From: a virus
Strand: one strand, 5' to 3'
DNA: 62,594 nt
IMG/VR virus record: IMGVR_UViG_3300027217_000003
Coordinates: 1 to 62,594 of that record
Shown here: positions 13,256 through 58,967 of the stretch, in pieces
Position numbering within the stretch: position 1 is the stretch's first letter
Layout of the letters: the number at the start of each line of letters is the position of its first letter
Position numbers and translations under genes: made by a program
Notes under the pieces: generated by a model
What the model was told of the DNA's origin: nothing
What the model saw: only the letters and a program-made list of their open reading frames with translations
Databases searched by the model: none

Positions 13256-14749
13256 TTAAGCTAGGTTTAGTAGGTTAGACCAAGTAGCACCAGCTGCGTC
13301 ATTCGTAACTTCGAATGATACGTACTGAGTCTCTGGGTGGAAACCTGCTTCAACTAGAGCGAATCTAGACTTAACAGCAATCTTAGGAGCCATAGTACCC
13401 TCTGCGATAGTCTGAACTGATTCAGCCATTAGGTATGGCATGAATACTAGACCTGGAGAGTTACCATCACCTTTTCTACCAACTACTACAGTGTAATCGT
13501 CCCATGCTTTTCTTGGATCAGTGTAAACATTGATACCAGCAACAGAACCTACAGGGTAGATAGCACCAGCAGCTTGAGAGATAGTGTTAGCCATTGGGTT
13601 TGCAACGAAACCAGCTACAGCTTGAAGAACAGTTGCAGTCTGTGGACCAACAACTGCGAAGTTACCAGCACCTCTTCTACCTCTGTTAGCGATCAAGTTA
13701 GCAGCAGCTAGAATCTGTGAAAGAAGTCTTCTGTGAACTGAAGCAACAGTCTCGCCACCAGCTAGATCAGCAGCAGCAGGAAGTTTTAGGTCGAAACCAG
13801 TTGAATTACCAAGTACATTAAGAGGAGCTGCTGGGAATACAGACTTAACGTTTCTGTAACCTAGAACCTTCATTTCTCTTAGGATTAGGTTGTTGATTGA
13901 CTGAGTTAGTTCGTTAGTTAGAACTGCCTCAACTTGAGCTACAGCGTCAACACCGAATTGCTTAAGATCTTGAACTTGCTCTCTAGTAACTGCAGCAGCA
14001 ACTTGGAAAGTTTCAGCAGCAACTGACTTAGAGAATAGAGATAGACCCATGATGTTCTCAGCCTTTCTCTCACCGTCTTCTCTCTTGAAAGGATCGCCAG
14101 CAGCGTTAGATGCAGAGAAACCAGGAATGTGGTCTTCTAGAGCCTTAACTAGTTCAACTGTTGCAGCTGGAACAGCTACAGCCAATCTGAAGTCAGCTTG
14201 TACGTTAGCATCGATTAGTGCAGTACCGATCACCTTGTAGATGTCGTTACCGTCGATTCTTGAAGTACCAACGAACTCGTATGCAGCGTGAGTAGCACCA
14301 CCAGCGATATCAGCACCAGTACCTGAATCAGTTGAGAAGTAGTATACGTTAGCTAGTTTAGCGTCATCTCTCTTCGCGCCACCGTCGTATACGAAGTCTA
14401 GGTAAGAAAGTAGACCCATTGGACCAGCCATAGGAACTACAGGAACTAGATCTAGACCTACAGTTTGTGCAGCAACTTGCATTGCTAGAGGAAGTAGTGA
14501 TGGAGACTTGTCACCAGAACCGTCACCTGCAGAACCTGCAGTGTTGAATGCTGATGGGAAAGAAACTGCACCCATACCTTTTACCATAGATGGTAGAACT
14601 GAAGAAAGTGTAGCTTCTTCATAAAGCTTGTGATTGTGGCAGTATTCTGACATCCAAGCTAGTTTGTTTGAATCGTTGATACCAGTAGCAGACTCGATGA
14701 TAGGAGCCCATGTTGCTCTGATTTCAGCTTCATTGATTAAATTTGCCAT
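13256..14749 (-). CDS. gp23: Major capsid protein (T4 gp23-like)
   Basis: A 497-residue capsid subunit, close in length to T4 gp23 (521). It has the family hallmarks: WAPIIESATGI near the N-terminus, VSFPSAFNTAGS, a long Gly/Ala-rich core, INNLILREM, RGAGNFAVVGP, GINVYTDPRKAWDDYTVVVGRKG and a C-terminal LVEAGFHPETQYVSFEV. The N-terminal 40-60 residues contain Glu-rich sites that may be cleaved by the prohead protease, as in T4 (after Glu65), but the exact site is not obvious. It has a strong terminator downstream and an unusually long AT-rich upstream region. Confidence 0.95.
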   Translation of the reverse strand: MANLINEAEIRATWAPIIESATGINDSNKLAWMSEYCHNHKLYEEATLSSVLPSMVKGMGAVSFPSAFNTAGSAGDGSGDKSPSLLPLAMQVAAQTVGLDLVPVVPMAGPMGLLSYLDFVYDGGAKRDDAKLANVYYFSTDSGTGADIAGGATHAAYEFVGTSRIDGNDIYKVIGTALIDANVQADFRLAVAVPAATVELVKALEDHIPGFSASNAAGDPFKREDGERKAENIMGLSLFSKSVAAETFQVAAAVTREQVQDLKQFGVDAVAQVEAVLTNELTQSINNLILREMKVLGYRNVKSVFPAAPLNVLGNSTGFDLKLPAAADLAGGETVASVHRRLLSQILAAANLIANRGRRGAGNFAVVGPQTATVLQAVAGFVANPMANTISQAAGAIYPVGSVAGINVYTDPRKAWDDYTVVVGRKGDGNSPGLVFMPYLMAESVQTIAEGTMAPKIAVKSRFALVEAGFHPETQYVSFEVTNDAAGATWSNLLNLA

Positions 14750-17149: not shown

Positions 17150-17494
17150 TTATAGATCTGCTAGAGGATCTTCCTCTCCATCTCCACCATCAGCTTCTTT
17201 CTCAGCTTCTTTTTCTTTCTCTTTCACTTCTGCTTGATAATCATTGAAATACTTTTTGATCTTTTCAATGTCTTCAGTAGAAAATGATAATTGACCAAAC
17301 TTATCGTACATTTTATCTACTGTTTCTTCCTCTGTTTCAGAAGATATTACAATGCCTAAGATCTCTTCTGAAGAGATTTCAGTTCCATCGGTTGTAATCA
17401 TATCGTCGATCACAACTTCTGATTCTTCTCCGGCTTTAATAGCATCTTCAGTAATTGAAGACCAGTATTGTTCAAATGTCTTTAGATTTTTCAT
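17150..17494 (-). CDS. Small acidic prohead core protein (gp67/gp68 position)
   Basis: A 114-residue acidic protein between portal and protease genes, the place of the small core proteins gp67 and gp68 in T4. It begins MKNLKTFEQYWSSITED, a variant of the capsid-targeting-like peptide shared by many proteins here, and ends in a Lys/Glu-rich helix and an Asp/Gly-rich tail (DGGDGEEDPLADL). Sequence similarity to a specific T4 core protein is not visible, so the role is inferred from position, charge and the N-terminus. GATAAATA lies four bases before the ATG. Confidence 0.6.
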   Translation of the reverse strand: MKNLKTFEQYWSSITEDAIKAGEESEVVIDDMITTDGTEISSEEILGIVISSETEEETVDKMYDKFGQLSFSTEDIEKIKKYFNDYQAEVKEKEKEAEKEADGGDGEEDPLADL

Positions 17495-17512: not shown

Positions 17513-19120
17513 TTACATTCCTCCGCCCATCGCTGCCATTGGGTCTGGATCATCTTCACCAGCTTGTTTAGCTTCTTTACGAGCTTTATATGCATCGTTA
17601 GCTGCTTTATCGTCTGGAGTTAGTTTTAAGTATCTGTCAACTAAGAAGTCCATATCAAAGTAGTGTTCTTCTTCCATCGTTGCAGGATCAGTAATAACTA
17701 GGTTATCTTTCAATGAACCGATGAAGTCAATTCTACGTTCCATGATTTCCATGTTCTTCAGTTCAGCAAACATGTTCTCTTCATTAAATCTTAGAGCGAT
17801 TTGAGTTCTAAATGCAGCATCATCTGCAAACTCTGGGAATTTAATAGACAACTGGATGAACAGTGGCTTTACAAGAACTTCTTGGAAAGCTGATCTCAAA
17901 CGTCTAACAAATTTAGAGAACTTGATTTCGTCTCTAATCATACCGTCAGCTGCAAGGTTGAATTCACCACCGCCATCTTCATACATGAAACGGTTGAATG
18001 GAATCTTAGATACATGCTTCAACTTATCAGAGAAGTACTTAAGAGCTTCCGTGTCTGATAGATCTGGACCATCACCTCCTAGGGTTTCAATCTCTGGTGA
18101 TTCACCTTCTTTTGAAGGCAACCAGTATTCTTTGTTGAACTGCATCATTGGCTTACCGTCGGTTGTCAGTGTACCTGATTCCCAATCAAAGTCAACGACT
18201 TCTTTATAGTTATTCATCAATTGTGCTAGAGATTGCTTAGCACGTGTTTTTGATTTACCACCCATTGGAATCACAAACTTCATTCTGAATGAAGCGTTAG
18301 TCACTGCCCAAATAACTCGGGTGTGTTCCATGATTCTCATTAGGTTAAATGCTCTAACCAATCTTTCTACATAAGAAACTCTTGATGCAGTTGTAATTGA
18401 AGAGTATGAGATGTAAATGATCTGTGCATCATAAAGAACTCTTTCCTTAATAGGATCATCCTTATATTGAATCCAAACCTTTTTACCGTCTTCTTTATTA
18501 TAACCTGGCATTAGGGTTACAGGATCTAGTTCTTTAAAACCAATGATCTGCTTTTGGTCAGGTGAATAAATGATTTCAAACGCTAGGTAACCATCAATCA
18601 GGAACTTTCTAAAATAGTACCATGCAGATTGATCTTGGTTAAAACCAAAGTATTGATAGATTTCTCTAAATGCTCTCTTAAAATAAGCATCTACTTCATC
18701 TGATACATCAAATCCGATGATGTCAGGATAACAGAAAAAGTTCTTTTCATCATAGACAACTGTCTCATCACAAAGAATGTCAAGAATGTCTTCAATTTCA
18801 TCATGAAGTGAGAATCTTCTAAGCTCATCTCTTTTAGCAGGATAGTTTTTATCAAAGAAAGGAATTTGCTTTCTCATGTTGGTGTCGGTCATCGACAACG
18901 CTGCAAACGCAGCATAGATGTCGTCATTGTCAACACCCATCGGGTTGATCTGACCGTAACCGAATTGCGCTTCCATTGGTCCGATTGCTTGAGATTGGCG
19001 CAATACCAAATCATCATAATACATACCGAACGACGAAAGTCGCTTCAGACCATCACTAAGAGTGAATGGTCTTCTGCCCGTCGATAGGGGACCGTTTCTA
19101 TTTTCTACAAAACCTGCCAT
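17513..19120 (-). CDS. gp20: Portal protein (T4 gp20-like)
   Basis: A 535-residue portal subunit, near T4 gp20 (524). It carries the family pattern: DEIEDILDILCDETVVYDE, a DQSAWYYFRKFLIDGYLAFE segment, FKELDPVTLMPGY, then IIYISYSSI, SYVERLVRAFNLMRIMEHTRVIW and PIGG-like VIPMGGKSKTRA. The dodecameric portal sits at the head vertex, starts head assembly and is the docking site for terminase. The tail is Gly/Met-rich (DPMAAMGGGM). It precedes the core protein and the protease in the operon, as in T4. Confidence 0.94.
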   Translation of the reverse strand: MAGFVENRNGPLSTGRRPFTLSDGLKRLSSFGMYYDDLVLRQSQAIGPMEAQFGYGQINPMGVDNDDIYAAFAALSMTDTNMRKQIPFFDKNYPAKRDELRRFSLHDEIEDILDILCDETVVYDEKNFFCYPDIIGFDVSDEVDAYFKRAFREIYQYFGFNQDQSAWYYFRKFLIDGYLAFEIIYSPDQKQIIGFKELDPVTLMPGYNKEDGKKVWIQYKDDPIKERVLYDAQIIYISYSSITTASRVSYVERLVRAFNLMRIMEHTRVIWAVTNASFRMKFVIPMGGKSKTRAKQSLAQLMNNYKEVVDFDWESGTLTTDGKPMMQFNKEYWLPSKEGESPEIETLGGDGPDLSDTEALKYFSDKLKHVSKIPFNRFMYEDGGGEFNLAADGMIRDEIKFSKFVRRLRSAFQEVLVKPLFIQLSIKFPEFADDAAFRTQIALRFNEENMFAELKNMEIMERRIDFIGSLKDNLVITDPATMEEEHYFDMDFLVDRYLKLTPDDKAANDAYKARKEAKQAGEDDPDPMAAMGGGM

Positions 19121-43198: not shown

Positions 43199-43759
43199 TT
43201 AATTGTTAGCAATGCCAATAATTTGACGAACCTTGCTAAGCATATTTCCTTTTTCGATCATTTCTTGATCTGGAATGGGAACTGAGCCCTTTTCATAATC
43301 TCCACCGCCAACAGATTCTTCTTCTGGTTGATCAGGTGAAAATGCCTTTAATTGTTTTTCAACAATGAATTCCTCCATTGTCATTAAGAGTTTACGTCTC
43401 TTTTTCTTTTTCTTACGATACTCTTCCTTAGCATCGCCTTGGCCGGCAGGTACATCTCCTGAACCATCGGAGCCGGCATCGGGTAAAACAGGGTCTCCCA
43501 TCCCACCCAACATACCTGGACCAAGATTCGATAAAGACGCTCCACCCAACGTGCTGAACATCGTATCTTCCTTAACCTCTGGAAGACCTTCATGGCTTGT
43601 TTCTGCAAAATCTTTAAGTTGTTTAAGTGTCATACTGTCTACTAGATCTGACACCTTATTTCTGTAAGTCGCGTCAACGTCTGAAAGTTGCATATCGCCC
43701 TTCTTGACGGCGTATGCAACTCCCATTAAACGTTGTTGTGATTTACTAGTGCTTGGCAT
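43199..43759 (-). CDS. DUF3008-like protein with internal targeting-like peptide
   Basis: A 186-residue protein. Residues 1-60 (MPSTSKSQQRLMGVAYAVKK, then VSDLVDSMTLKQLKDFAETS followed by HEGLPE) match the DUF3008 pattern (S-K-x-Q-Q-R...K...LxxFAxTxHxGLP). A Gly/Pro-rich linker follows, then a very basic block (EEYRKKKKKRRKLLM) and TMEEFIVEKQ, which resembles the targeting peptides at the N-termini of its neighbours. The rest is acidic and flexible. Last gene of the putative internal-protein cluster; a head core or DNA-condensing role is possible. Confidence 0.65.
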   Translation of the reverse strand: MPSTSKSQQRLMGVAYAVKKGDMQLSDVDATYRNKVSDLVDSMTLKQLKDFAETSHEGLPEVKEDTMFSTLGGASLSNLGPGMLGGMGDPVLPDAGSDGSGDVPAGQGDAKEEYRKKKKKRRKLLMTMEEFIVEKQLKAFSPDQPEEESVGGGDYEKGSVPIPDQEMIEKGNMLSKVRQIIGIANN

Positions 43760-43785
43760 TTTAATAGCTCTATATTGTTTAGAGA

Positions 43786-44478
43786 TTAGACTCTAACGCC
43801 AGCAACTTTTGCCAATTCTCTTAACTTAGCTTGAGCTTGTTGAAATTTAGAAAATACTTCGTCGTATGTCTTTTTACGAGCTGCAACTTCATCGCAACCC
43901 TTTTTAAGATCTTTACAAGTCTCTTTTACACCTTGTAATGCTGATCCTGCTTTCATAAAAGCTTTTCTTGATGATTTATATTCACCTTTAGCAAAAGAAT
44001 ATAGCGCTAACATATCCGATGACATTTTATCCTCTAACTTATCGCATTTAGCAATCACCTTTTCTGCAACTGCATCTGCTTTCGTCTCCTCTGCTTCGTC
44101 TCTCTCTTTCAAAGATTTCATCAAATTTTTCTTATCTGATGGAACGTGTTGCAACATTGCAGACCATTTAGAAGATTGATAACTCAATTCTCCAATAATT
44201 TGAATTGTTTTTGCAACAACTGGTCTAACTTTCTCTTGATCTTTGTCTTTATCACCACCTTTAAGCTTTTCTAATTCAGCTTCTAGATCTAGTTTGTTAC
44301 CGTCTAGATCATTTAGGCGAAGTTCAGCCTCATCTTCATCAAAGTCGCCATTGTCCATAGCGTCTTGAACATCTTCCATTTCTTTTTCGATGTCCTGCAA
44401 TTCTGCTTGAATCTCTTTAATTCTCTTCTCGTTAGAAGCTTCGAAGATGAATTGTTCAAATAGTTTTACGTGTTTCAT
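43786..44478 (-). CDS. Putative internal head protein, coiled coil
   Basis: A 230-residue coiled-coil protein. It begins MKHVKLFEQFIFEASNEKR, a close match to the shared targeting-like peptide and to T4 MKTYQEFIAEA; cleavage would be expected after the Glu of FIFE. The body is charged heptads (IKEIQAELQDIEKEMEDVQD and so on) with two cysteines near the C-terminus. TATAAATA ends directly at the ATG. I infer a core or packaged role from the N-terminus; no enzyme motif seen. Confidence 0.6.
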   Translation of the reverse strand: MKHVKLFEQFIFEASNEKRIKEIQAELQDIEKEMEDVQDAMDNGDFDEDEAELRLNDLDGNKLDLEAELEKLKGGDKDKDQEKVRPVVAKTIQIIGELSYQSSKWSAMLQHVPSDKKNLMKSLKERDEAEETKADAVAEKVIAKCDKLEDKMSSDMLALYSFAKGEYKSSRKAFMKAGSALQGVKETCKDLKKGCDEVAARKKTYDEVFSKFQQAQAKLRELAKVAGVRV

Positions 44479-44516
44479 TATTTATAGATATGTTTAATCT
44501 TTAGTTGGTTTAATGA

Positions 44517-45524
44517 TTACCAAGCGTAATCCATGTCATTTACTTTTTTAACCTTGTCTTTAATGCTCTTAGCGTAGGTAGAAGCTTCTCTTGTGTAGTA
44601 TTTACTACCTTCAGGATTTTTAGCATCGTTAGTGTATCTAACATAACTTTGATACATGTCAAGTATATTAGAAATAACGTTAGCGGCATCTCTCATAGAG
44701 ATTTCGCGACCTTTCTTGTCGGTGCCAATGATCATTGACTCGTATCTACCCGCAGTCTTATTCTTAAGAGCGCTTTGAATATGTCCAGTTACAGTTTCAA
44801 TTGCCTTTTCAACCATACCGTCAATATCATCGCTGGCTGCTCTAGTTGCAAGAATCATTTTGTATCTGTTCATGTTCTCCTGTTTGAATTCCTTATCTGT
44901 CATGAATGCTGTTGCGCCTGCTTTAGCAGCTGATCTGCTAGCTTTTTGATCTGCAGCGCTTGGAAGAATAGATGGATCAAACATTAGAACTCTATCTGAA
45001 ACCTCAGAAATTCTCTTGATGTTTGATAGACCTGAAGCACCATAACCAGAATGTTGCTTGTCAATGCCTATAGATGAAGCTTCTTTACCGTATTTACCGG
45101 CATTCTTTAGTTTTGGTTCGTAAGGAGCTGATCTATTCCATCCTCTAGTGTAATCCATTGCAAACATTTCATTTTTACCATTTGCAATGGCCAAAAGAGT
45201 GTTACCTGGAATAGTACCGTAACCGGTGTATTTAGATTGACTGTGATCAGCGTATGGGTTTCCTTTCTCATTATCGGAGATATAGAAAAAGATAGCGTTA
45301 GGGTGAGCTTTGGTCTTATAAGCCTCAGCTGGGTGTAGTTCAACCACTTGATCGTCAGTAATTTCATCTAGCTTAACCTTAGTGAAATTATAAACTGCTT
45401 TCATTATGTCCTTCCTAGCCGAAGATAGGCCAAGAATAGAAGCCAACTTTGAAGACTTGAATGCTTCGTTAACCTCTAATGACTCATTAACAAAGCTTTC
45501 GAATGTTGTGTGAATCTTATTCAT
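44517..45524 (-). CDS. Putative internal protein, unknown fold
   Basis: A 335-residue protein beginning MNKIHTTFESFVNESLEVNE, again a targeting-like peptide with a cleavage-type FVNE. The middle has a globular region rich in Gly/Tyr (PYADHSQSKYTGYGTIPGNT, YTRGWNRSAPYEP) and FFYISDNEKG. A basic helical C-terminal half follows. I do not recognise the fold; the pattern could be an ADP-ribosyltransferase-like or unknown effector, but no catalytic motif can be assigned. It overlaps the next gene upstream by eight bases. Confidence 0.55.
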   Translation of the reverse strand: MNKIHTTFESFVNESLEVNEAFKSSKLASILGLSSARKDIMKAVYNFTKVKLDEITDDQVVELHPAEAYKTKAHPNAIFFYISDNEKGNPYADHSQSKYTGYGTIPGNTLLAIANGKNEMFAMDYTRGWNRSAPYEPKLKNAGKYGKEASSIGIDKQHSGYGASGLSNIKRISEVSDRVLMFDPSILPSAADQKASRSAAKAGATAFMTDKEFKQENMNRYKMILATRAASDDIDGMVEKAIETVTGHIQSALKNKTAGRYESMIIGTDKKGREISMRDAANVISNILDMYQSYVRYTNDAKNPEGSKYYTREASTYAKSIKDKVKKVNDMDYAW

Positions 45525-46536
45525 TTTCGTTTACTGTTTTAATTTTAGATAGGATTCTCTGGCCGTACTTCGACAGTGAGATACCATCTTCTGAAACGTT
45601 GAAGTAGTGACGATTTGATTTCGCCCATCTTCTAGAAGCAGTAGAGAATTCCTTAATGATTGTTTCAAATTCTTCAGTCGTTACTTTACCGTCTGCAATT
45701 GCTTCGATGATCTTGTCTCTGACTGGACCAAACTTAGATACTGTGATCTGTGGATAGTTGTCAGTGTAACGTCTTTTTAGAGTGATTTTACCTTCGGTGA
45801 TTTGTTCACCTTCTAGGATTACGATAGATGTAAGGCCACCCTTTGTGAATGAATCAACGTCCATTTTGAACTCGTGACCCATGATTTCGCTAAACATCTT
45901 AATCATGCCATAACCTTCAAGGGAAGATGGAGACATGTACGATGACATGTTCATTTGGAAACCACCTTTAACTTTAGAGATTCTTTTCAGAGCTTTATCA
46001 AAGCCAACCTCACTGAACACTTGTTGCATCGCATATCTGATGTCTTCCATGTTGTAACCTTTAGCTTCGTCAATTTCGCCTTCAATCTCAACTTCGTTTT
46101 CTAGAGATTCTGGTACGCCCATTGCAAATTTGCTTAGATCTGGTTCGTAGTCCATACCAAAGCCGTATCTTACGTAATTAGCGCCTTGAGTATCAACGAA
46201 AACACATTGACCGTAGTAGTCCTTAAGTTCACCTTGTTCGTGATTCAACCAAAGAATAAAGATCGTTTCAGTAGGTGTGTTTGCAAAATTAGCATAGATT
46301 CCTTTTGGTGCCATTTTACCCCAAACATCCTTAGATGTATAAACTGGAATGTGGGTTAGGTCTAGTTCTTTTTGCTGTGCGTCTTTCAGCTGAACAGCGT
46401 TTGAACCAAAAAGATCAGATGTGTAAGCTGGCTTTCTCTCAATGTTTCTACCACCATAAGTTTTGAACAGGGTATAAGCCTGATCTTCGTTGTAGAATTC
46501 ATTTAAGAATGTTCCAAATGACTCAAATACTCTCAT
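45517..46536 (-). CDS. Putative internal protein, unknown
   Basis: A 339-residue protein starting MRVFESFGTFLNEFYNED, a targeting-like peptide with FLNE. It has a beta-rich part (GIYANFANTPTETIFILWLN, GQCVFVDTQGANYVRYGFG) and the acidic linker NEVEIEGEIDEAK, followed by a second domain with EGYGMIKMFSEIMGHEFKMD. No family recognised. It shares the cluster, the N-terminal peptide and the late-type box (32 bases upstream) with its neighbours. Confidence 0.55.
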   Translation of the reverse strand: MRVFESFGTFLNEFYNEDQAYTLFKTYGGRNIERKPAYTSDLFGSNAVQLKDAQQKELDLTHIPVYTSKDVWGKMAPKGIYANFANTPTETIFILWLNHEQGELKDYYGQCVFVDTQGANYVRYGFGMDYEPDLSKFAMGVPESLENEVEIEGEIDEAKGYNMEDIRYAMQQVFSEVGFDKALKRISKVKGGFQMNMSSYMSPSSLEGYGMIKMFSEIMGHEFKMDVDSFTKGGLTSIVILEGEQITEGKITLKRRYTDNYPQITVSKFGPVRDKIIEAIADGKVTTEEFETIIKEFSTASRRWAKSNRHYFNVSEDGISLSKYGQRILSKIKTVNENE

Positions 46537-46568
46537 TTTTAAGTGTTGTCTTTTTTAATATCTTATTT

Positions 46569-46576
46569 TATATATT
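46569..46576 (-). promoter_or_regulatory. Late-promoter-like box AATATATA
   Basis: AATATATA on the minus strand, 32 bases before the gene at 45517-46536 and overlapping the stop codon of the nuclease-like gene. Confidence 0.45.
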
Positions 46577-47726
46577 ACGCATCTTCTCTTACTCTTAGTA
46601 GGGCTCCTGACATACCAAAGATGGCTTCTTTACCAGCTCCGTATTGTGATGCAATATCGGTTCCTTGAACCTTCTTCAACCCTGAAGTAATGTTCATTGC
46701 CTCTTTTCTAAAGACAACGAATTTCATTTTAGCGTATTTCTTTTCAACATTTGCAAGACCATCATTGATGTCTTTAACTAGCGATTCAACGCCTGCTCTA
46801 ACATATTCGTTCTTTGCAAGCATTCTGTATAGTGCTTCTTCGTTTGAAACGTCAGCCATATTAACTTGCTTAATGATCTTAAATTTACCTGCTTTAATAT
46901 CTGCTTCCTTTGCGGGTTCGATAATAAAAGACATGTTTGGATTACCGGGTGAAGTTGATTTCACCTCAATGATATCGTATCCTGTAGACCTATTCGCTAA
47001 TTGCTCTTTTGCAATCTTAATGAAATCAATCACAGAGCTAATAAGTTCTTTTGATACTTCACCTCTAGAAAAATCAGAAGCTGCTGATTTACCTTCACCT
47101 CTTGAATTTACGGTCGCAGCTGCATTGAAGATTTCAGGGTGCATATCTTTTAGACCTGGAATTGCAACAATCTCTTCTGTGATTTCGGCAACGTGTCTCA
47201 TTTTTCTCAACCATACGAATTGAGAAGCTGCACCTGCATTACCCAATCTGAATGGAGAATGAGAGTCAGCGTATGACTTAACTTCGTATTGTCCTTTTTC
47301 ATTGTGTGTTACGTCAAAGGATTCTCCGCCGCCTGAGATTCTAACACCATCAACCACCCAAGCCAACCACAATTCACCAGGACCAATACCCTTTGATTGC
47401 GTATTGAATAGACCATTTGAGAACGAAGATGAATTAACTTCTTTAAGATAGTTAGGCTGTAGGGCCTCAAGGCTCGAATACTTTCCAAGTCCTTCAACGA
47501 AGATTGCAAGATCCTTACCTGACAGGGAATTAAGTGTCTTAATCATGTCGGCAAAAGGTGAACCTCCTGTCCTTTGTAGGTTTTGAAGGTACTTATCAAA
47601 TTGTGCCTTCTTAGAAGAAACCGCTTTAGTAAGAGCAGGGTTCTTAATTCCGTATGCTGTGTATTCTTCAGTCTCGTTGATCAGCTGAAGTTCTCTTGCA
47701 AAATTAGATCTAATTAAATTACTCAT
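46575..47726 (-). CDS. Putative PD-(D/E)XK nuclease
   Basis: A 383-residue protein. I use the ATG at 47726, which overlaps the upstream stop (ATGAGTAA); the frame reaches a TTG at 47753. The nuclease core is visible as GIGPGELWLAWVV (Glu118), GGGESFDVTHNEKGQYEVKS (Asp138, then Glu148-Val-Lys150) and SPFRLG, in the E...D-x9-E-x-K spacing of restriction-type nucleases. The rest is helical. It lies within the putative internal-protein cluster between the ligase/adenylyltransferase gene and unknown cargo genes, so it could be packaged and injected, or be an ordinary phage endonuclease. Confidence 0.65.
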   Translation of the reverse strand: MSNLIRSNFARELQLINETEEYTAYGIKNPALTKAVSSKKAQFDKYLQNLQRTGGSPFADMIKTLNSLSGKDLAIFVEGLGKYSSLEALQPNYLKEVNSSSFSNGLFNTQSKGIGPGELWLAWVVDGVRISGGGESFDVTHNEKGQYEVKSYADSHSPFRLGNAGAASQFVWLRKMRHVAEITEEIVAIPGLKDMHPEIFNAAATVNSRGEGKSAASDFSRGEVSKELISSVIDFIKIAKEQLANRSTGYDIIEVKSTSPGNPNMSFIIEPAKEADIKAGKFKIIKQVNMADVSNEEALYRMLAKNEYVRAGVESLVKDINDGLANVEKKYAKMKFVVFRKEAMNITSGLKKVQGTDIASQYGAGKEAIFGMSGALLRVREDA

Positions 47727-49584
47727 TGCTAAACTTGTTGATGAACTGTTCAAAGGTCATCAATTCTTCATTTACTTTTGACTCCGCAGCTGTCATAGCT
47801 TTTAAAAGCTCAGACTGTAGAACTGGGTACATTCCGTGAAGTGACTTTGGTGTCATTCTTTGAAACTCTGTCTTATTATCGGACATCATTGCGTTTCTAA
47901 CCGCAGTTGCTGAGATGTCATCATCTGTTCTGTGAATTTCATGCATACCAAACTCAGGTAGAACGTTCAATTGTTCTCTGTACGTTTCTTTGTATGCCTG
48001 TGAAGAGTAAGCTGCCATTCTATCTGTACCTGTACCCCATAAGACTGGTTCGTACTTAGGTCTTAACTCATTGAATAGGGCGTCAATTGCAGCGAATGGA
48101 ACAACAATAATATCTTTTAGGAACTTGTATTCCCTTTGAACTGCCTTAAACATTTTCATTTGCATTGCCTCGTCATAAGGTCTTTTGAATGCATCTTCCT
48201 TTTTAGCCGTCTTTGACTTAACTAGGAATACTACAACTGGTAGGCCGTTCTGATCATGTAGAGACTGAAGAACTTTAGCGTGACCTAGAGTAAAAGGTTG
48301 GAATCTGCCAACAAACATATTTACTTTTTGTTTACCATGTTCTAGGGTCTTAACCTTTAGGGCTTCATTAACTTCTCCTTCTGGAGCATCTTCCTGAATT
48401 GAAGACCACTTCTTAAATGATGTAAAGTCCATTACGTCGTTCTCTTCTAATTTTGCGTCAATCTGCTCGTAAATCTTATCGATGATCTCGTTTAGCTGTG
48501 CAACCATGTCCTCGGTTAGAATATCACTTGCCTTCTCTCTTTTATTTCTAAAAGAAGATAAAACAATTTTGAAAAGCTCAGATAGGATTGGGTTGTTGAC
48601 GTATTTTAAGGTTTGTTCGTTTTTCAAAAACGCGGTGTTTAGATTAAAGGCTTCATTCTTTGCGAAATCAGCTGTCTCAAACTTAACACCAATATATTTT
48701 GCGGCATTAGCCTTAATGTAATCGTTAAATGATTCAGACATGATTTCTATAAATCTTCTGTCTTTCTTTTCTTCAACTAGTTTGTATTGTGAAAAATCAT
48801 GGTTTGTGAAGTATTCAATAACGTCTACCATTGTGATTTGATAAACATCAGAAGACTTTCTTTCTGTTTCTTCATTCTTTCTTCTATAATCTTCTAGCTT
48901 GAAAGACTTCATTGATTTGCCATCAACAAACGAAACAACTAAACCATCAATTTCTTCATTAACTGATTCATTCAGCGCAGTTCTAGACATGCCTGAATTA
49001 AAAATGTTATAGATGTCTCTGGTGAATGAACGATTTTCGTATACTTTTTCAAATTCATTATCGTTCATTTCTAGAATTTTGATCAATTGCTCCTTCTGGA
49101 ACATCGTCAGCATGCCTTCGAAGATCACAGGTGGCTTTTGAACATCAAGTTTCTTTGCCCACTTGTTTAGGACCTCAGTGTCTCTAATCACCTTAGAAAC
49201 CCTGCCTGATTCGTTAAGAACCTGGATATGCGTTAGAATTAAATTATTCTTAGGAAGAAGAGCGTACTTAAAATTTGGAGTTTCATTTTCAATCAGATAA
49301 TCAAAACCAAACTTCCAATCCTTCGGCATGTCGCTCTTCATTTCATCACCTAAACCTTGAAAGTGACGAATAGCATTTTCATAAAATCTAACGATAGTAC
49401 GATCTACAATATCCATAGCTCTTTCAGAACCTGATTTGTAGTACTTGTTGGTTAGATCATCTCTTCTGACGTGAAATGATGAAGCAGCGATCTTCTCAAC
49501 AGCGTGAACCTTTTGGGTTAACATTGCCATGAAGTTTTCGCGATTCGTATCGTTGAAGTGATCTCTAAGTTTAGGTAGTGCCAT
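47719..49584 (-). CDS. Fusion: ligase-like N-terminal region and NMNAT-like nucleotidyltransferase
   Basis: A 621-residue protein. The C-terminal 200 residues are a HxGH-type nucleotidyltransferase: MFVGRFQPFTLGHAKVLQSL (426-435 for GRFQPFTLGH) and ISATAVRNAMM (ISATAVR at 557-563), the pair seen in NMN adenylyltransferases of the NadM type and in other cytidylyltransferase-like enzymes. The N-terminal part has ligase-like elements (WKFGFDYLIEN near 90-100, and EIDGLVVSF with SFKLED at 211-232, resembling motifs III, IV and V), but I see no KxDG, so it may be degenerate. A targeting-like sequence, LMTFEQFINKFSNE, lies at the very C-terminus. Confidence 0.7.
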   Translation of the reverse strand: MALPKLRDHFNDTNRENFMAMLTQKVHAVEKIAASSFHVRRDDLTNKYYKSGSERAMDIVDRTIVRFYENAIRHFQGLGDEMKSDMPKDWKFGFDYLIENETPNFKYALLPKNNLILTHIQVLNESGRVSKVIRDTEVLNKWAKKLDVQKPPVIFEGMLTMFQKEQLIKILEMNDNEFEKVYENRSFTRDIYNIFNSGMSRTALNESVNEEIDGLVVSFVDGKSMKSFKLEDYRRKNEETERKSSDVYQITMVDVIEYFTNHDFSQYKLVEEKKDRRFIEIMSESFNDYIKANAAKYIGVKFETADFAKNEAFNLNTAFLKNEQTLKYVNNPILSELFKIVLSSFRNKREKASDILTEDMVAQLNEIIDKIYEQIDAKLEENDVMDFTSFKKWSSIQEDAPEGEVNEALKVKTLEHGKQKVNMFVGRFQPFTLGHAKVLQSLHDQNGLPVVVFLVKSKTAKKEDAFKRPYDEAMQMKMFKAVQREYKFLKDIIVVPFAAIDALFNELRPKYEPVLWGTGTDRMAAYSSQAYKETYREQLNVLPEFGMHEIHRTDDDISATAVRNAMMSDNKTEFQRMTPKSLHGMYPVLQSELLKAMTAAESKVNEELMTFEQFINKFSNE

Positions 49585-49586
49585 TT

Positions 49587-50876
49587 TTATCTTCCGTATT
49601 TAATAATACCCATTAGCTGGTTGATTGCAGCAAAGGTGCCAGTTAGCTTATATATTTTACCCTTATACTTGAACACTAGACCTTCAGAAGGAATGATTGA
49701 ATCAATTCCACCAATTCTTGAAAGTCTGTCAAGTTCAGCTTCAACCTTTTGAATTTGCTTAACGTCTCCGCCTTTCTTAATCTTACCCGCCTCTGTTCTA
49801 ATCTGATTGTGAAGTCTTTGCATTTCCTGATCAGGTGAAGCAGCCAAGAAGTTTGAAGCATTCTTTAGAACCTCAGAACCAAACTCTAGGAAAAGATCTT
49901 CAAATGGTCTAATGTTTTCTTTGTATTTCTTACCAGCATCCATCTTATCGTATTGCTTGATCTTATCCATACCTGCAGCGTCAACGAGTTTGGCCATGGC
50001 TCTAAAGTCCATGCCTTGTTTGTTGTTATAGGCCCATCTCTGAAGAAGACCTTCTTTTACGTCTTGTGTAAGGTTAGGGAATGAAGCATCGATCTCTTCT
50101 CTCCACCACATTTCATGATAACGTGAAACCTCGTCTGAATCAGAAAGCTTGTAACGATTCTTAAGGTCTTCAATCTTCTTCATGAAATAAGGTAGCTTGG
50201 CAGAAAAGTCTTGGTGCTTTCTCAGAACAAGAACCTGTGGAGGAATGATCGTGAATGTTTTACCAATGTGAGCATTAACGTCTTGTAGAATCTTTGTAAG
50301 CTCTTTAGCTGCTCCAGGACCAGACTCACCAGTAATGTTTCCGTTACCGTCAGTGTATTTAATTCCGTGGAACTGAATTACATCTTTATCGTAATTGATG
50401 ACATTAGAGTTACCCGAAAAGATTAACTCCATATTCATGAAGTTCTTACCGCCGTCAAAGTATTTTTCTTGTGAATCTGACTTCAATTTGCCTAGGGCTG
50501 AAGCTAAATCATTAGCTGCCATAGTAAATGTCTTACGAACTCCCTCTGAAGGGTGATCAGCAAACATTGAAGTAACTCCACTAAGGTCCAATGGGTTTTT
50601 CAACTGACCTGCATTTCTTGCAAACATTGTAACGCCATCTTTAACTGTTGCAAAGATGTTTTGACCATCTGTTTTTTCAGTTGGATCTTCTTCGAAGTTC
50701 AATTCTCCCTTTAGACCTGCTTCAATCATGGCTTTAAAGTCGCCAAACGTTAGATCTTTGTCATCAAACGGATGTGACATGTGACCAGCAGCACCACCCT
50801 CTAAAACGAGGTCAGAGCCGGCCAAGCTTTGACCTGCTCTTTCAACGATGAATTGGTTATAAGTTAATAATTTCAT
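49587..50876 (-). CDS. Nucleic-acid ligase-like protein (ATP-dependent, RNA/DNA ligase superfamily)
   Basis: A 429-residue covalent nucleotidyltransferase. Motif I is EKTDGQNIF (KTDG at 68-71, Lys68 the likely AMP-linked residue), MFARNAGQ follows (86-91), motif III is NMELIFSG (148-155), and motifs IV and V are EGLVFKY and IYKLTG at about 398-413. A 200-residue helical insertion separates motifs III and IV. It starts MKLLTYNQFIVERAG, the targeting-like peptide. Whether the substrate is RNA, DNA or a protein is unknown. It directly follows the small genes at 50876-51447 and precedes the fusion protein with the adenylyltransferase domain. Confidence 0.75.
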   Translation of the reverse strand: MKLLTYNQFIVERAGQSLAGSDLVLEGGAAGHMSHPFDDKDLTFGDFKAMIEAGLKGELNFEEDPTEKTDGQNIFATVKDGVTMFARNAGQLKNPLDLSGVTSMFADHPSEGVRKTFTMAANDLASALGKLKSDSQEKYFDGGKNFMNMELIFSGNSNVINYDKDVIQFHGIKYTDGNGNITGESGPGAAKELTKILQDVNAHIGKTFTIIPPQVLVLRKHQDFSAKLPYFMKKIEDLKNRYKLSDSDEVSRYHEMWWREEIDASFPNLTQDVKEGLLQRWAYNNKQGMDFRAMAKLVDAAGMDKIKQYDKMDAGKKYKENIRPFEDLFLEFGSEVLKNASNFLAASPDQEMQRLHNQIRTEAGKIKKGGDVKQIQKVEAELDRLSRIGGIDSIIPSEGLVFKYKGKIYKLTGTFAAINQLMGIIKYGR

Positions 50877-51148
50877 TAGATTTTATCTTGAAATACTATT
50901 TTACCGGTAGCATCTTCAAGTGTGAAATGATAACCGGACGTTGGGTAACGCTTTTTAAGAGTTGTCCAGTTCGCTGGAACGGCGTCGGGAATGTTAATTA
51001 CTTCCTGATGAATGACTGCTCCAACCTGGGCGCCTTTAGCGTGAACTACTAGTGTCACTGGGAAGGCAGCATCTTTCAATGATTTCTTAATCTTTGAGAA
51101 AGATACTTCTTCATTAACAAATGCTTCGTACAATTTTACGCGTTTCAT
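50876..51148 (-). CDS. Small putative internal protein
   Basis: A 90-residue protein. I choose the ATG at 51148 (ATGA overlap with the upstream stop) because it gives MKRVKLYEAFVNEEVSFSK, matching its neighbours; another ATG is three codons upstream. After the peptide the body has strands (FPVTLVVHAKGAQVGAVIHQ, GYHFTLEDATGKIVFQD) suggesting a small beta-rich domain. No family recognised; likely cleaved after FVNE and packaged. Confidence 0.6.
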   Translation of the reverse strand: MKRVKLYEAFVNEEVSFSKIKKSLKDAAFPVTLVVHAKGAQVGAVIHQEVINIPDAVPANWTTLKKRYPTSGYHFTLEDATGKIVFQDKI

Positions 51149-51447
51149 AGTGACCATGGGTGATTTTTAGCAACAAACTTTTTACCGTGAATAAGGCCTA
51201 GAACATCTCTGTCCTTTTCACTGTGTTGTAATTTGAATGTATCGTGATCATATTTCCAATGAGCCTCTTTAGAACCTTTACGAAAACCGTATGTCATATC
51301 CTGCTTCTTGTCATAAGATACCATGTTATCAGGGTGAAGCTCCTTGTATGATTCAACAAATTTGTTGTACTCATAAGGAGTCATCTGATTATAGGTCATG
51401 AAAATACCTTCAGAGATGAACTGTTCATATAGTTTAACGTGTTTCAT
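51145..51447 (-). CDS. Small putative internal protein
   Basis: A 100-residue protein beginning MKHVKLYEQFISEGIFMTYN, the clearest copy of the targeting-like peptide; cleavage would fall after FISE. The rest is basic and aromatic (EYNKFVESYKELHPDNMVSY, HWKYDHDTFKL). It is the first gene of a unit with its own CGGGTC-type promoter candidate just after a terminator. No family recognised. Confidence 0.6.
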   Translation of the reverse strand: MKHVKLYEQFISEGIFMTYNQMTPYEYNKFVESYKELHPDNMVSYDKKQDMTYGFRKGSKEAHWKYDHDTFKLQHSEKDRDVLGLIHGKKFVAKNHPWSL

Positions 51448-51453
51448 AGGGCT

Positions 51454-51477
51454 AATATAACCAAAAAAACCGACCCG
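51454..51477 (-). promoter_or_regulatory. Promoter candidate CGGGTC-N10-GTTATATTAGCCC
   Basis: Minus strand: CGGGTC at 51477-51472 (part of the terminator stem), ten bases, GTTATATT at 51461-51454, then six bases to the ATG at 51447. Identical over 16 bases with the site before the RNase H gene. Confidence 0.5.
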
Positions 51478-51491
51478 GAAAAATCCGGGTC
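51463..51491 (-). terminator. Rho-independent terminator after the 51501 gene
   Basis: Minus strand: GACCCGGA / TCCGGGTC stem of eight base pairs, four-base loop, then a run of T residues. It overlaps the start of the next promoter candidate. Confidence 0.85.
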
Positions 51492-51500
51492 AGATTATTT

Positions 51501-53345
51501 TTATCCTTTAGCGATCTTTGCAAGCTCTTTAGCAACGTTCTTTGCTTCAGCGCCTTTTAGACCACCTTCTGTTTGAACAAGATTGAATAGCTCGTCTTCT
51601 GACATTGATTGAAGTTCAGACTCAGAGTGCTTACCTTTCTTTAGATCAACTAGAGACACATAAAGTTCCATTGCCTTTTGCTCGTCCTTAGCTGCCTCTT
51701 CGACCTTGTAAGTCTTACCATCGAATTCAAACTCTTCTTCGCCAGCTTCTTTAGCCTTTCTTACTGCGTCACCGAAAGCATTGCCTTCTTCAACTTCATC
51801 AGACTCGCGAACTGGAACAATACCTAGTTTGCTAGATGCTTTGCCAAGGTTGTTTTCAACTGCTTCAACGTTTTTAATGATATTCTGAATGGCCTTTCTC
51901 CAAGCTGCGTCGGTTGTTTCTTCAGCTAGATCATTTAGCTTTGCGTATAGATCTTCAATTAGACCGCCGACTTCGTCGTAAATATCTACTTCAGCTTCAT
52001 ATACTTTTGATTCTTTAATGTATTCTGCTAAGTCTTCGTCACACCATCCATAATCACAATCTGCTAATACAGTTTCAAGGTCTTTTCTCTTACCTTGCAT
52101 TAAGATAACTGGGTGACCACCTGCTGGACCGTCCATTTGCTTGTTAATAATTTTAACATTATTCTTCTTTAAGAATTTTAAGAAGTCTTTATTGTCTGGA
52201 TCCATTGCGTCCATTTCAACCTCAGCTTCAGAGATAAACATATTCTCTTCATTGACTACTGCTTCAAAAGCTGGAACAAGATCTCTATCTCCATAAAGGT
52301 CGATCATGTACCACTTGCCGTCTCTTTCGTCATAAAGGTATGCATATTCTGCACCATTAGCGTCAGCGTCGTTGATATACTTCTTCAAATTCTTAACTGA
52401 ACCCTTAAGAGGTGTCATAGAGTTTTTATCGTTATAGAACTTAATCTTATTGATGTCAGCCTCTAGACCTGAATTATCTCCCTTTGTGATAACTGCATCA
52501 ACATCAGAACCAGATTTGTAACCTTTCTTAATAACTGGCAACATGTGTTCTGGGTAAGAATCGTAGTGAGTGTATACTGATGCAATCTCGCCTGACTTAT
52601 AAATCTTACCGAATTGGCCTCTTGTACCTTCTTCAATGATTTGCTCTAGAGAGTTTAGGTTAACTGACTCGTTAAGATTGAATTTTGTGATAGCGTTAAG
52701 AAGCTTATCAGCCGCGTCATTTTCACCAATTTCTTTTAGGTAATCTACTGTGCCGTTAGCGATTGCATAACCGTCCCACTTAGCAGCGTTAGCGATGTCT
52801 GAATAAACTTGACCTTGGCCCTTTGCTCTCGATGCAGAACCGATTGCCTTTGACGTAACGATTTCTTGGTGAAAGTTAGCATCTTCCATTGCATCAGCGT
52901 AAACCCTAGCGATTGCATTTAGTTCTTTAACGCCTGACTTTTTCCAAGCATTGACTACTGAACTACGCTCTCTTTTGCCTTCGTTAACTTCTTCGGTTTC
53001 CTTTGCTTCCTCTGTCTCAGATTCTTTCAAAGTGATTGGGTATTTCTTACCGTTCCATTCGAACTCTTTTTTACCCTCTCTTTTTGCCTTTGAAGCAGCG
53101 AAAATGAAAGCTCTACCTTCAGCAATTCCAGCCTCTTCTTCGTTTAGATCGAATAGTTCGGCGGTGAAAGCCTCTAACTGATCTTCTGTAAGTTCAGAAG
53201 CTCTAGTTACGTTATATTTCTTCAGAAGCCCATTAAATGAAGCGGCCGCTTCACCTCTTGAAACTTCTTTTTGTTGGTTCTCGGCCTCTTCTCTAAGCTG
53301 TGTTTTTAGCGTAGAAAATGACTTGAAATTTTGAATACGTTCCAT
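51501..53345 (-). CDS. Large putative internal or scaffold-related protein with two EGxAF modules
   Basis: A 614-residue acidic protein. I use the ATG at 53345 (MERIQNFKSFSTLKTQLREE); the frame extends to a TTG at 53351. It carries two copies of the module EGxAF..A..AK..G..EFE(F/W)xGKxYxV (near residues 80 and 525), also found in the gp21-scaffold fusion. Between them lie several charged domains, one (VDAVITKGDNSGLEADINKI) near a NTase-like fold in appearance but without clear motifs. The sharing of modules suggests that it enters the prohead with the scaffold. Late-type box 42 bases upstream. Confidence 0.6.
   Translation of the reverse strand: MERIQNFKSFSTLKTQLREEAENQQKEVSRGEAAASFNGLLKKYNVTRASELTEDQLEAFTAELFDLNEEEAGIAEGRAFIFAASKAKREGKKEFEWNGKKYPITLKESETEEAKETEEVNEGKRERSSVVNAWKKSGVKELNAIARVYADAMEDANFHQEIVTSKAIGSASRAKGQGQVYSDIANAAKWDGYAIANGTVDYLKEIGENDAADKLLNAITKFNLNESVNLNSLEQIIEEGTRGQFGKIYKSGEIASVYTHYDSYPEHMLPVIKKGYKSGSDVDAVITKGDNSGLEADINKIKFYNDKNSMTPLKGSVKNLKKYINDADANGAEYAYLYDERDGKWYMIDLYGDRDLVPAFEAVVNEENMFISEAEVEMDAMDPDNKDFLKFLKKNNVKIINKQMDGPAGGHPVILMQGKRKDLETVLADCDYGWCDEDLAEYIKESKVYEAEVDIYDEVGGLIEDLYAKLNDLAEETTDAAWRKAIQNIIKNVEAVENNLGKASSKLGIVPVRESDEVEEGNAFGDAVRKAKEAGEEEFEFDGKTYKVEEAAKDEQKAMELYVSLVDLKKGKHSESELQSMSEDELFNLVQTEGGLKGAEAKNVAKELAKIAKG
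51705..51795 (-). repeat. Copy 3 of the EGxAF module
   Basis: Encodes EEGNAFGDAVRKAKEAGEEE followed by FEFDGKTYKVEE, similar to the copies at 15650-15745 and 53030-53135. Confidence 0.75.
53030..53135 (-). repeat. Copy 2 of the EGxAF module
   Basis: Encodes AEGRAFIFAASKAKREGKKE followed by FEWNGKKYPITLKES. Confidence 0.75.
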
Positions 53346-53386
53346 TTGCAAATGATTATGTATTTTTGTAGTATGTTATCTTAAGA

Positions 53387-57960: not shown

Positions 57961-58596
57961 CTAATCCTGGGTTGAAGGTTGCAACGACAGTAAATACATT
58001 AAGAGGAAGGCAGCGTCAACCAAGTCATCTAAAGGTTTCACTAGTTTTTTCTCATCACGAAAGGGTTGACAAAAAGAATGAAATTCAGAGGACTGAAAGG
58101 AGTCACTGTCAACAAATGCTTTCCACATCGCTTCTTTGTTCATGTTACCTTTGCCAGCAAACTTCTTGATTGCGGTTGGAGCAATAACGTCAAGGTCTTC
58201 AACGATTAAGGTTTCAATCAATTTACATTTAAGGATTGATGCAGCTGCTTGAAGATCCAGTAGTGAATTGGTACCAAATCTAGAAGTACCATAAGAAGCA
58301 CCCTCAAAATAAATCCTGTAAGGTTTAGATGGATCAGTGTGCTCAATGATCATTGCCATTAGATTTTCGGCAATGTTAATATGTCGATTAACTCTAGTGA
58401 GTTCGTGTTTAGAAATATCAGGTTCGTCTTGAAAAACAAGACTAACGTCCGATAGCTTGGCCATCTCTTGTTGAGCGGCTTTATCCTTCTTTGTAGATTT
58501 TGTAGAATTTAGGTATGAAATCCAATGAGGTTTCCCATCCTTTAAAACACAAACACCTGGAGAATTAATAGAAAAGTCGATTCCGACGTAGTTCAT
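57961..58596 (-). CDS. RuvC-like Holliday junction resolvase (RNase H fold)
   Basis: A 211-residue nuclease. The acidic active site is present: GIDFS at the N-terminus (Asp7), YFEGASYG (Glu98), and DDLVDAAFLL near the C-terminus (Asp190, 191 and 194). SRFGTNSLLDLQAAASILK and IAPTAIKKFAGKGNMNKEAM (Lys-rich DNA-contact region) follow the RuvC layout. It probably resolves junctions before packaging and replaces gp49 (endonuclease VII) of T4, which I do not see in this window. Start overlaps the stop of the gene upstream (TAATG). Confidence 0.85.
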   Translation of the reverse strand: MNYVGIDFSINSPGVCVLKDGKPHWISYLNSTKSTKKDKAAQQEMAKLSDVSLVFQDEPDISKHELTRVNRHINIAENLMAMIIEHTDPSKPYRIYFEGASYGTSRFGTNSLLDLQAAASILKCKLIETLIVEDLDVIAPTAIKKFAGKGNMNKEAMWKAFVDSDSFQSSEFHSFCQPFRDEKKLVKPLDDLVDAAFLLMYLLSLQPSTQD

Positions 58597-58967
58597 TAGA
58601 ACATGTTTTTACCAAGACTTGCACCTAGAGCGGCGCCGACAAGTCTTGAAGTTAATAGATCGTACATCAAGCCCTTTTCAATACCAAGCGTCTTAGCCAG
58701 AAGTTTACCAACAGATTTACCAAGTGCAAAACCAGTTAGACCTCCTAAAATAGAACCCAGAACACCTTCATTCGTAAGTTCAACGTTAAACTTATCGATA
58801 TCGTACGTACCGTCTTCGTTTTTATATTCAGCAAGAAATGCGTCAACAGCTGCGTCAACTCTTTCTTCGAGTTCGTCAGTCCATTCAGATTGCAATGACT
58901 CGTTAAGGGCATTCAATTCTGCCTCTGTAACGTTCTGTGCTTCAAGATATTCGATAAAAGTTCTCAT
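58596..58967 (-). CDS. Small glycine-zipper protein with targeting-like N-terminus
   Basis: A 123-residue protein. The start MRTFIEYLEAQNVTEAELN resembles the capsid-targeting-like peptides. The acidic middle is followed by two Gly-rich amphipathic or membrane-inserting segments (GVLGSILGGLTGFALGKSVG, and LVGAALGASLGKNMF), a glycine-zipper pattern seen in membrane-active peptides. If packaged, it could act on the host membrane during DNA entry; this is inference. Late-type box four bases before the ATG. Confidence 0.6.
   Translation of the reverse strand: MRTFIEYLEAQNVTEAELNALNESLQSEWTDELEERVDAAVDAFLAEYKNEDGTYDIDKFNVELTNEGVLGSILGGLTGFALGKSVGKLLAKTLGIEKGLMYDLLTSRLVGAALGASLGKNMF

Follow-up and report, generated by a model that had tools for sequence, protein, structure and literature searches.

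The 62,594-base phage record IMGVR_UViG_3300027217_000003 of IMG/VR (the window, i.e., the whole stretch of DNA that was analysed) contains a cluster of minus-strand genes between positions 43199 and 53351, most of whose products carry a short terminal peptide, here called the tag, that resembles the capsid-targeting peptide of the internal proteins (IPs) of phage T4. We consider it very likely that these tags are removable propeptides of the T4 type, which would load a set of effector and RNA-repair proteins into the phage head. Loading into the head is well supported, by comparison only, and the case draws on the tag and the pattern of its residues, the limitation of the tag to particular families, a C-terminal form, cleavage-type sites in front of certain modules, a protease gene and predicted folds. 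Cleavage of the tags and the purpose of the cargo we infer, the suggestion of RNA repair coming from the set of enzymes. The cargo would presumably also be injected into the host, because the T4 IPs and Alt are ejected into the host cell (PMC9026906).

The tag follows the pattern [Y/F]xx[F/Y][I/L/V]xE, with an aromatic residue, a second aromatic at +3, an aliphatic residue at +4 and Glu at +6. In the T4 peptide MKTYQEFIAE, packaging is directed by residues 4 and 7, and processing depends on residues 8 and 10 (PMC9026906), and the spacing of the window tags matches exactly that of the T4 targeting and gp21-processing residues. Taking the genes from the list of open reading frames (ORFs) and naming them by their left-hand coordinates, a perfect N-terminal tag is present in six of the ten minus-strand genes between 43199 and 53351. 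The initial annotation, which had noticed the common peptide, was right that each of the sequences it quoted exists and is the start of a minus-strand ORF. Its extension of the idea to the whole cluster holds for most genes but is too wide, since 46575 and 43199 are without an N-terminal tag; 51501 has the aromatics only. Likewise, among the genes that it listed elsewhere, 11942 has a perfect tag, whereas degenerate versions occur in 17150 (FEQYWSSITE) and 58596 (FIEYLEA). In the window, all seven perfect tags reach to residues 12-14, within the length of T4-type propeptides (about 10-19).

Such a frequency is not expected by chance. When every ATG in the first 60 codons was tested, a tag at the start codon was found in 7 of the 73 called genes of the window, compared with a mean of 0.37 and a maximum of 5 for 238 permuted motifs (the same residue classes in permuted placements), none of which reached 7. 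Four longer contigs had 11/219, 8/298, 28/291 and 5/221 tagged genes against null means of 0.82, 0.81, 0.91 and 0.50, respectively, and tagged genes are clustered in the window as well as on the longer contigs G001 (IMGVR_UViG_3300027244_000194, 170,561 bases) and G003. The same search in 50 kb of T4 (NC_000866) returned exactly ipII and ipIII, the two genes of that record in which MKTYQEFIAEA was found; ipI differs (MKTFKEFTSTTTPVSTITE). Four tagged ORFs, a homologue of the 49587 ligase-fold protein included, were found in the 90 kb examined of LR756500.1, a 462-kb uncultured phage. The common Met-Lys start was not counted as evidence because starts in this phage are A-rich and lack Shine-Dalgarno (SD) signals: no SD excess was seen upstream of 40 minus-strand starts of the window (4/40 against 2.5 in shuffled sequence), and the leaders are A-rich, with A at -3. 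Bacteroidia ribosomes do not recognise SD signals (PMC9976891), and such starts are compatible with a Bacteroidota-type host.

The window encodes a T4-type head module on its minus strand (Table 1), including a head maturation protease of the gp21 family. The top-ranked public match of its capsid protein is LR756500.1 (51.6% identity), followed by Prevotella Lak phages, and a megablast of the region against phage records gave no match. The protease and the 47719 protein of G001 are each 100% identical to those of the window, for which reason G001 was treated as the same phage. Protease matches were obtained in 10/10 related records, although in G004 and G008 only over the region of a shared NAF-type module.

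Relatives were retrieved with sequence patterns lying outside the tag (the best 80 of 596 confirmed loci for 49587, and 10 loci for 47719), and tag frequencies were counted over distinct homologues (<98% identical) in families with at least four of them, excluding ORFs cut by the end of a locus. The N-terminal tag was kept in 51/59 homologues of 49587, 30/49 of 44517, 28/51 of 45517, 6/8 of 50876, 11/11 of 51145 and 41/45 of 58596, the counts for 44517 and 45517 overlapping in part through the same fused ORFs. Among 354 homologues from 11 further families at the same loci, such as those for replication and tail proteins, none had it. Clustering the 270 distinct tagged ORFs of 90 loci and the longer contigs (named phage records were left out) by their bodies gave 69 clusters, of which 49 have a single member; at E 1e-4 the 69 clusters were mutually dissimilar. 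In 39 of the 69 cluster representatives the residue following the tag Glu is Ala, Ser or Gly. Pfam searches with 30 tagged or mosaic proteins gave informative matches for few only.

Two proteins of the cluster are predicted to have an RNA-ligase fold, and they carry the tag at opposite ends. In the 49587 family, 36/36 aligned members keep [YF]xx[FWY][ILVM]x[E/D] at the N-terminus, with E in 32, and K68-T-D-G is invariant in all 36. A second conserved Glu stands immediately ahead of the body, at GGAAGHM (LxLE-like), and the alignment indicates that a cut after the tag would leave the conserved body whole. The AlphaFold model (predicted local distance difference test, pLDDT, 77.8) has a helix at residues 6-15 and a low-confidence linker at 16-32, the tag part itself being of low pLDDT. 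Comparison of this model with VIA-align gave Z up to 8.0, and the first 41 of the 50 rows listed were all RNA/DNA ligases, the best other protein reaching 4.8. Foldseek returned T4 Rnl1 as the best match in the PDB (E 8.3e-3), and among viral models phage proteins with a cytidyltransferase domain (best E 1.4e-31) and the RNA ligase of phage RM378 (E 5.7e-4). A PDB sequence search with the ligase alignment gave no useful match, and profile comparison found no relation between the 49587 and 47719 ligase-like families. By fold and KxDG motif, 49587 is thus predicted to belong to the ATP-dependent RNA/DNA ligase superfamily.

The 47719 protein has no N-terminal tag; it has one at its C-terminus, missed by the initial annotation, where MTFEQFINKFSNE runs to the last residue. 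The protein ends in VNE-ELMTFEQFINKFSNE, so that the VNE site (residues 604-606) lies just upstream of the tag. At the C-terminus TFxx[FY][ILVM] is found in 38/38 aligned members of the family, position +6 is occupied by K in 18 members, N in 15, S in four and R in one, never by E, and (I/L/V/M)xE lies upstream of the tag in 29/38. A scan with a fixed window recovered the C-terminal tag in 51/56 distinct homologues. The targeting residues are therefore kept, the inner Glu is lost and a site stands between body and tag, as expected of a tag cut from the other side; T4 gp21 performs C-terminal processing of Alt (PMC9026906). The 47719 model has a low-confidence stretch at residues 601-610 and a short helix at 611-619, again with low pLDDT in the tag, and as modelled this end shows the mirror image of the start of 49587. 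For the ligase part the first-ranked Foldseek match is T4 RNA ligase 2 (E 5.1e-9) and E30-K31 is invariant, which points to an Rnl2-like ligase with RNA sealing as a predicted activity. Residues 420-597 match NMNAT with Z 14.1, tied with PPAT and NadD rows, hence the substrate of this adenylyltransferase was left broad; profile searches matched MJ0541 and 2qjo, and GRFQPFTLGH is invariant.

Further candidate enzymes are encoded by a second cluster of tagged genes on G001 (159497-163308). These are a tagged PNK-type kinase (PF13671, 5e-10; phrog_505, 7e-7), a tagged HAD/PNK-type phosphatase (phrog_415, 2e-8) and a GNAT acetyltransferase with a degenerate tag (PF00583, 9e-7), alongside a DUF5824 protein. 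In PDB sequence searches the kinase gave only weak, unrelated-looking matches and the HAD-like protein none. A 399-amino-acid protein from the same place (160240-161439) has a tag with D and looks like an ADP-ribosyltransferase by eye only (LYRGT, FTSFTP, TEYEIFV); no ADP-ribosyltransferase match was found in Pfam, no sequence match in the PDB, and the search for relatives returned only itself. Elsewhere on G001, 105572 is a tagged R2K ATP-grasp protein (PF14243, 3e-9), and another contig encodes a tagged stand-alone cytidylyltransferase (L092:5502-6101). Two other tagged proteins were observed, one (L024:8709-9359) weakly matching peptidase family C25 (PF01364, E 4e-5) and one (L119:1838-2833) an ATP-grasp protein that matches phrog_2599, 'ribosomal protein S6 glutaminyl transferase' (E 9e-9).

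Cleavage-type sites were also found inside longer proteins. Relatives of 44517, 45517 and 51501 are built from common modules in varying order and length; the KRRYTENHP module of 45517, for example, stands behind the tag in some proteins and in the interior of long ones in others, and in the window protein itself the junction reads ITE|GKITLKRRYT. Just before this module (I/L/V/M)xE occurs in 28 of 29 distinct contexts (random 4.1; xD 0, xK 1), before the MDAMDP module of 51501 in 14/14 (random 3.1) and before the NAF module in 46/52 (random 10.5), an enrichment of 4.4 to 6.8-fold over the three modules. The NAF module, ~45 residues long with the pattern [NR]AFxxAxxxAK..GxxxFExxGKxYPV, is common to the protease/scaffold fusion (14957-17092) and to cargo proteins such as 51501-53351; it recurs on related contigs and may be a second head-association element.

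The kinase family gives a similar picture. Its sample comprised 80 of 258 confirmed relatives and 60 distinct ORFs, of which 46 contain the start of the body and 14, beginning downstream, were dropped; as the pattern list used for it held one tag peptide (FEDFVNEG), the frequency of the tag was left unused and the start of the body was tested instead. Directly before the body start, G[VLIY].D, (I/L/V/M)xE is found in 46/46 ORFs, although the body sits behind 38 different leaders and the tag itself occurs in only 6 of the 60 ORFs. Some of the leaders resemble weaker head tags (MKQFKQIIQE, MKSYKQLIE). The gp053 protein of Agrobacterium phage Atu_ph07 contains the kinase as an internal module, which again follows VTE|G. 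Virions of this phage contain 131 proteins, with 29 found from coding sequences (CDS) 31-76 (PMC6102473), and gp053 falls within that range if locus-tag and CDS numbering agree.

Taken together, we propose that the two aromatic residues of the tag would bind the prohead core, so that the protein enters the head before DNA packaging, after which the gp21-family protease would cut behind (I/L/V)xE and remove the tag. The tag is modular, standing in front of some 69 dissimilar bodies and, in the 47719 family, at the C-terminus, and cargo of several modules would probably be cut apart in the head at the sites before the modules. Among the predicted cargo are the two proteins with an RNA-ligase fold, the NMNAT-like domain and, from G001, the kinase, the phosphatase, the acetyltransferase (whose tag is degenerate) and the ATP-grasp enzyme. 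These enzymes likely enter the host with the DNA; within minutes of infection they could then mend RNA that host defences have cut, and act on host targets by modifying them. A broader version of the proposal, to which we give slightly less than even chances, is that large T4-like phages of a widespread aquatic clade use a tag movable to either end to pack a large set of exchangeable enzymes, including a complete RNA-repair kit (end kinase, phosphatase and two ligases) and an NAD-type adenylyltransferase, so that cutting of tRNA or other RNA by host defences would be undone before phage expression, and that chains of modules are cut in the head.

Several results weigh against the proposal. For the tag itself, the observed count was reached by two permuted motifs in G001 and by one in G002, probably because these overlap with the tag; the adjacency test was weak in G002, G005 had only five tagged genes, unclustered, and a few of the single body clusters look like chance matches. 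In 150 kb of Tenacibaculum phage PTm1, a T4-like relative, the search returned a single tagged ORF, so that the system is seemingly absent there, and it returned none in 6.6 kb of Atu_ph07, 16.6 kb of HTVC008M or 10.7 kb of Melnitz. Cultured relatives of the kinase carry other, short leaders, such as MIPFILKE in gp129 of Pelagibacter phage HTVC008M and MKTFAELQE in _118 of Methylophilales phage Melnitz. The 46575 gene lies inside the cluster with no tag. Regarding cleavage, four of the 36 ligases of the 49587 family have D for E, a substitution that blocks processing in T4 (PMC9026906), and nine of the 38 C-terminal tags have no (I/L/V/M)xE upstream. Control motifs before the modules were themselves enriched up to about threefold (for NAF, [ILVM]E 21/52 against 6.9), and a fourth module pattern had (I/L/V/M)xE in only 2/5. 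Over all mosaic joints (I/L/V/M)xE was found in 286/586 against 195 at random (1.47-fold), and the control E.[ILVM] in 263 against 176.4 (1.49-fold), so the claim of sites is restricted to modules with a sharp start. The original suggestion of a T4-like capsid-targeting propeptide has come through nearly all comparative tests, with the exception of this general test of mosaic joints, which was not specific. Furthermore, the assignment of 49587 as a ligase is based on structure and of modest strength, with no PDB Foldseek match at E <0.001 and Z no higher than 8.0, and a published virion proteome naming a tagged homologue was not found in the open-licence PMC literature.

Alternatively, the tagged proteins could be parts of the prohead core or scaffold that are cut up and then leave, or stay as packing material, like T4 gp22, gp67 and gp68. 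The tags or tag-like starts of 11942, 17150 and 58596, whose neighbours are capsid and tail genes, would suit this, as would the many internal sites and a NAF module common to the gp21 fusion and 51501. However, several bodies are enzymes with conserved signatures (49587, 47719, the kinase, the GNAT protein and the ATP-grasp protein), which a scaffold does not need, and 49587 cut after its tag keeps its conserved body intact; we regard a purely structural role as unlikely. That the peptide sorts proteins to some other place (a phage compartment, membrane or replication site), or binds a shared partner unrelated to the head, is improbable. Any sorting signal would appear as a common short N-terminal peptide on unrelated proteins, but the T4 spacing is kept exactly, together with both targeting and processing residues, the Glu is lost precisely where a cut after it could not free the tag, a cleavage-type site stands at the start of the kinase body in 46/46 ORFs with 38 leaders, and a gp21-family protease is encoded.

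The similarity might instead arise at the level of DNA or RNA, with A-rich, SD-less starts and near-identical 5' ends serving as recombination or translation elements. Such starts favour Met-Lys, and three tags share many codons (6/8, 9/11 and 5/9 of identical residues), yet the C-terminal tag is not near a start codon, the same residues are partly written in different codons between tags, and neighbouring families are untagged (0/354, above), which makes this origin very improbable. We give almost no credence to chance or shared descent, i.e., a few paralogues and a loose motif. The motif does have four loose positions and many of the relatives share ancestry, but the permuted mean of 0.37 in the window, the dissimilarity of the 69 body clusters and the expected outcome of the T4 and PTm1 controls all argue against it.

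Among the closest known systems are the tags of T4 IPI, IPII, IPIII and Alt, which are likewise short N-terminal peptides with aromatics three apart and (I/L/V)xE, on unrelated bodies and with a gp21-family protease. Unlike the T4 IPs, the present tags, known from sequence only, stand on many more bodies, among them RNA-ligase-fold and NMNAT-like enzymes, have a Glu-less C-terminal form, and have tag-like counterparts inside DUF3008 proteins. Kinase, phosphatase and ligase activities such as those of T4 Pnkp and Rnl1/Rnl2 are also predicted among the tagged proteins; the T4 enzymes are made after infection, whereas here they would arrive with the particle. A removable C-terminal propeptide cut by gp21 is known for T4 Alt and gp21 (PMC9026906), but the putative one of 47719 bears the aromatic tag otherwise seen at N-termini. 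According to the same source, T4 relatives carry other proteins with sequences like the capsid-targeting one. Inner-body and ejection proteins of the large phages phiKZ and SPN3US also have removable propeptides, which the prohead protease cuts behind a short motif whose last residue is Glu; most of those described for SPN3US exceed 100 residues (gp45 having 20), whereas the tags here have T4 length and T4 residues (PMC5694885). Polyvalent proteins (PMC5512222, PMC9503650) are similarly reshuffled multidomain proteins with host-modifying and nucleotide-handling enzymes and are predicted head cargo, but the route predicted here is a terminal tag with prohead-protease sites before modules. Sets of injected enzymes are thus not a novel concept, since packaging of multi-domain effectors by phages has been proposed in these two papers; RNA repair is treated as phage-encoded in PMC9503650, and packaging of repair enzymes is not stated in the parts of that paper covered. 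Within the portions of the open-licence PMC literature covered, no description was found of RNA-repair enzymes bearing tags of this kind, or of a C-terminal tag with the T4 aromatics. As far as the literature was searched, what is new is the scale of the tag code, its occurrence in a C-terminal form, the placing of sites in front of modules and the predicted RNA-repair enzymes among the cargo.

The cargo that large phages bring into the cell besides DNA is mostly unknown and is usually learned phage by phage through proteomics. Should the tag prove a true loading code, sequence would suffice to predict the contents of the head, particles would already hold RNA-repair and NAD-related enzymes before genes are expressed, and the T4 loading signal would work from the C-terminus as well.

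Table 1 Head genes, cluster genes and tags of the window
Feature	Position	Strand	Basis
404-aa (amino-acid) protein adjoining capsid gene, tag MKSAIKLYESFLKE, start 13144	11942..13156	-	sequence
Major capsid protein, gp23 family	13256..14749	-	phrog_138 E 5.6e-42
gp21-family head maturation protease, 711 aa, long acidic scaffold-like extension	14957..17092	-	phrog_207 E 1.9e-36
114-aa acidic protein, degenerate tag-like FEQYWSSITE	17150..17494	-	between portal and protease
Portal protein, gp20 family	17513..19120	-	phrog_213 E 5.6e-70
DUF3008 protein, degenerate internal MTMEEFIVE	43199..43759	-	PF11450
Tagged protein, 230 aa, start MKHVKLFEQFIFEA	43786..44478	-	sequence
N-terminal tag MKHVKLFEQFIFE of 43786 protein	44440..44478	-	sequence
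Tagged protein, 335 aa, start MNKIHTTFESFVNES	44517..45524	-	sequence; homologues
N-terminal tag MNKIHTTFESFVNE of 44517 protein	45483..45524	-	sequence
Tagged protein, 339 aa, start MRVFESFGTFLNEF	45517..46536	-	sequence; module contexts
N-terminal tag MRVFESFGTFLNE of 45517 protein	46498..46536	-	sequence
392-aa protein, likely start 47726, no canonical tag	46575..47753	-	sequence
621-aa protein with predicted T4 Rnl2-like RNA ligase and NMNAT-like adenylyltransferase domains, fused	47719..49584	-	Foldseek, profiles, PF01467
C-terminal tag TFEQFINKFSNE of 47719 protein	47722..47757	-	family alignment
Predicted ligase-fold protein, 429 aa, start MKLLTYNQFIVER	49587..50876	-	alignment, AlphaFold model, Foldseek, VIA-align
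N-terminal tag MKLLTYNQFIVE of 49587 protein	50841..50876	-	sequence; family alignment
Tagged 90-aa protein, start MKRVKLYEAFVNEE	50876..51148	-	start codon at 51148; ORF listed 50876-51157
N-terminal tag MKRVKLYEAFVNE of 50876 protein	51110..51148	-	sequence
Tagged 100-aa protein, start MKHVKLYEQFISEG	51145..51447	-	sequence; homologues
N-terminal tag MKHVKLYEQFISE of 51145 protein	51409..51447	-	sequence
Multi-module protein, 616 aa, start FKSF (two aromatics only)	51501..53351	-	homologues; module contexts
123-aa protein, start MRTFIEYLEA; homologues MKTFxxYLxE	58596..58967	-	homologues

Among the remaining proteins of the cluster, 43786 was found at five loci with 100% identity, which amounts to one distinct N-terminus, and the body of 44517 is fused behind other modules in relatives. 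The 51501 family starts with [YF]xx[FY] in 49/52 homologues and has the full tag in 4/51. The N-terminal tag is found in 0/29 homologues of 43199; in DUF3008 relatives TFEQFxNE-like tags lie internally or near the C-terminal end in 13/30 (with a loose pattern), compared with a background of 0.146 per protein. Outside the cluster, comparison with the T4 gene order places 17150 at the position of gp67/68, and the protein encoded by 58596, whose gene stands beside the tail tube gene, has a glycine-rich, hydrophobic C-terminal half.

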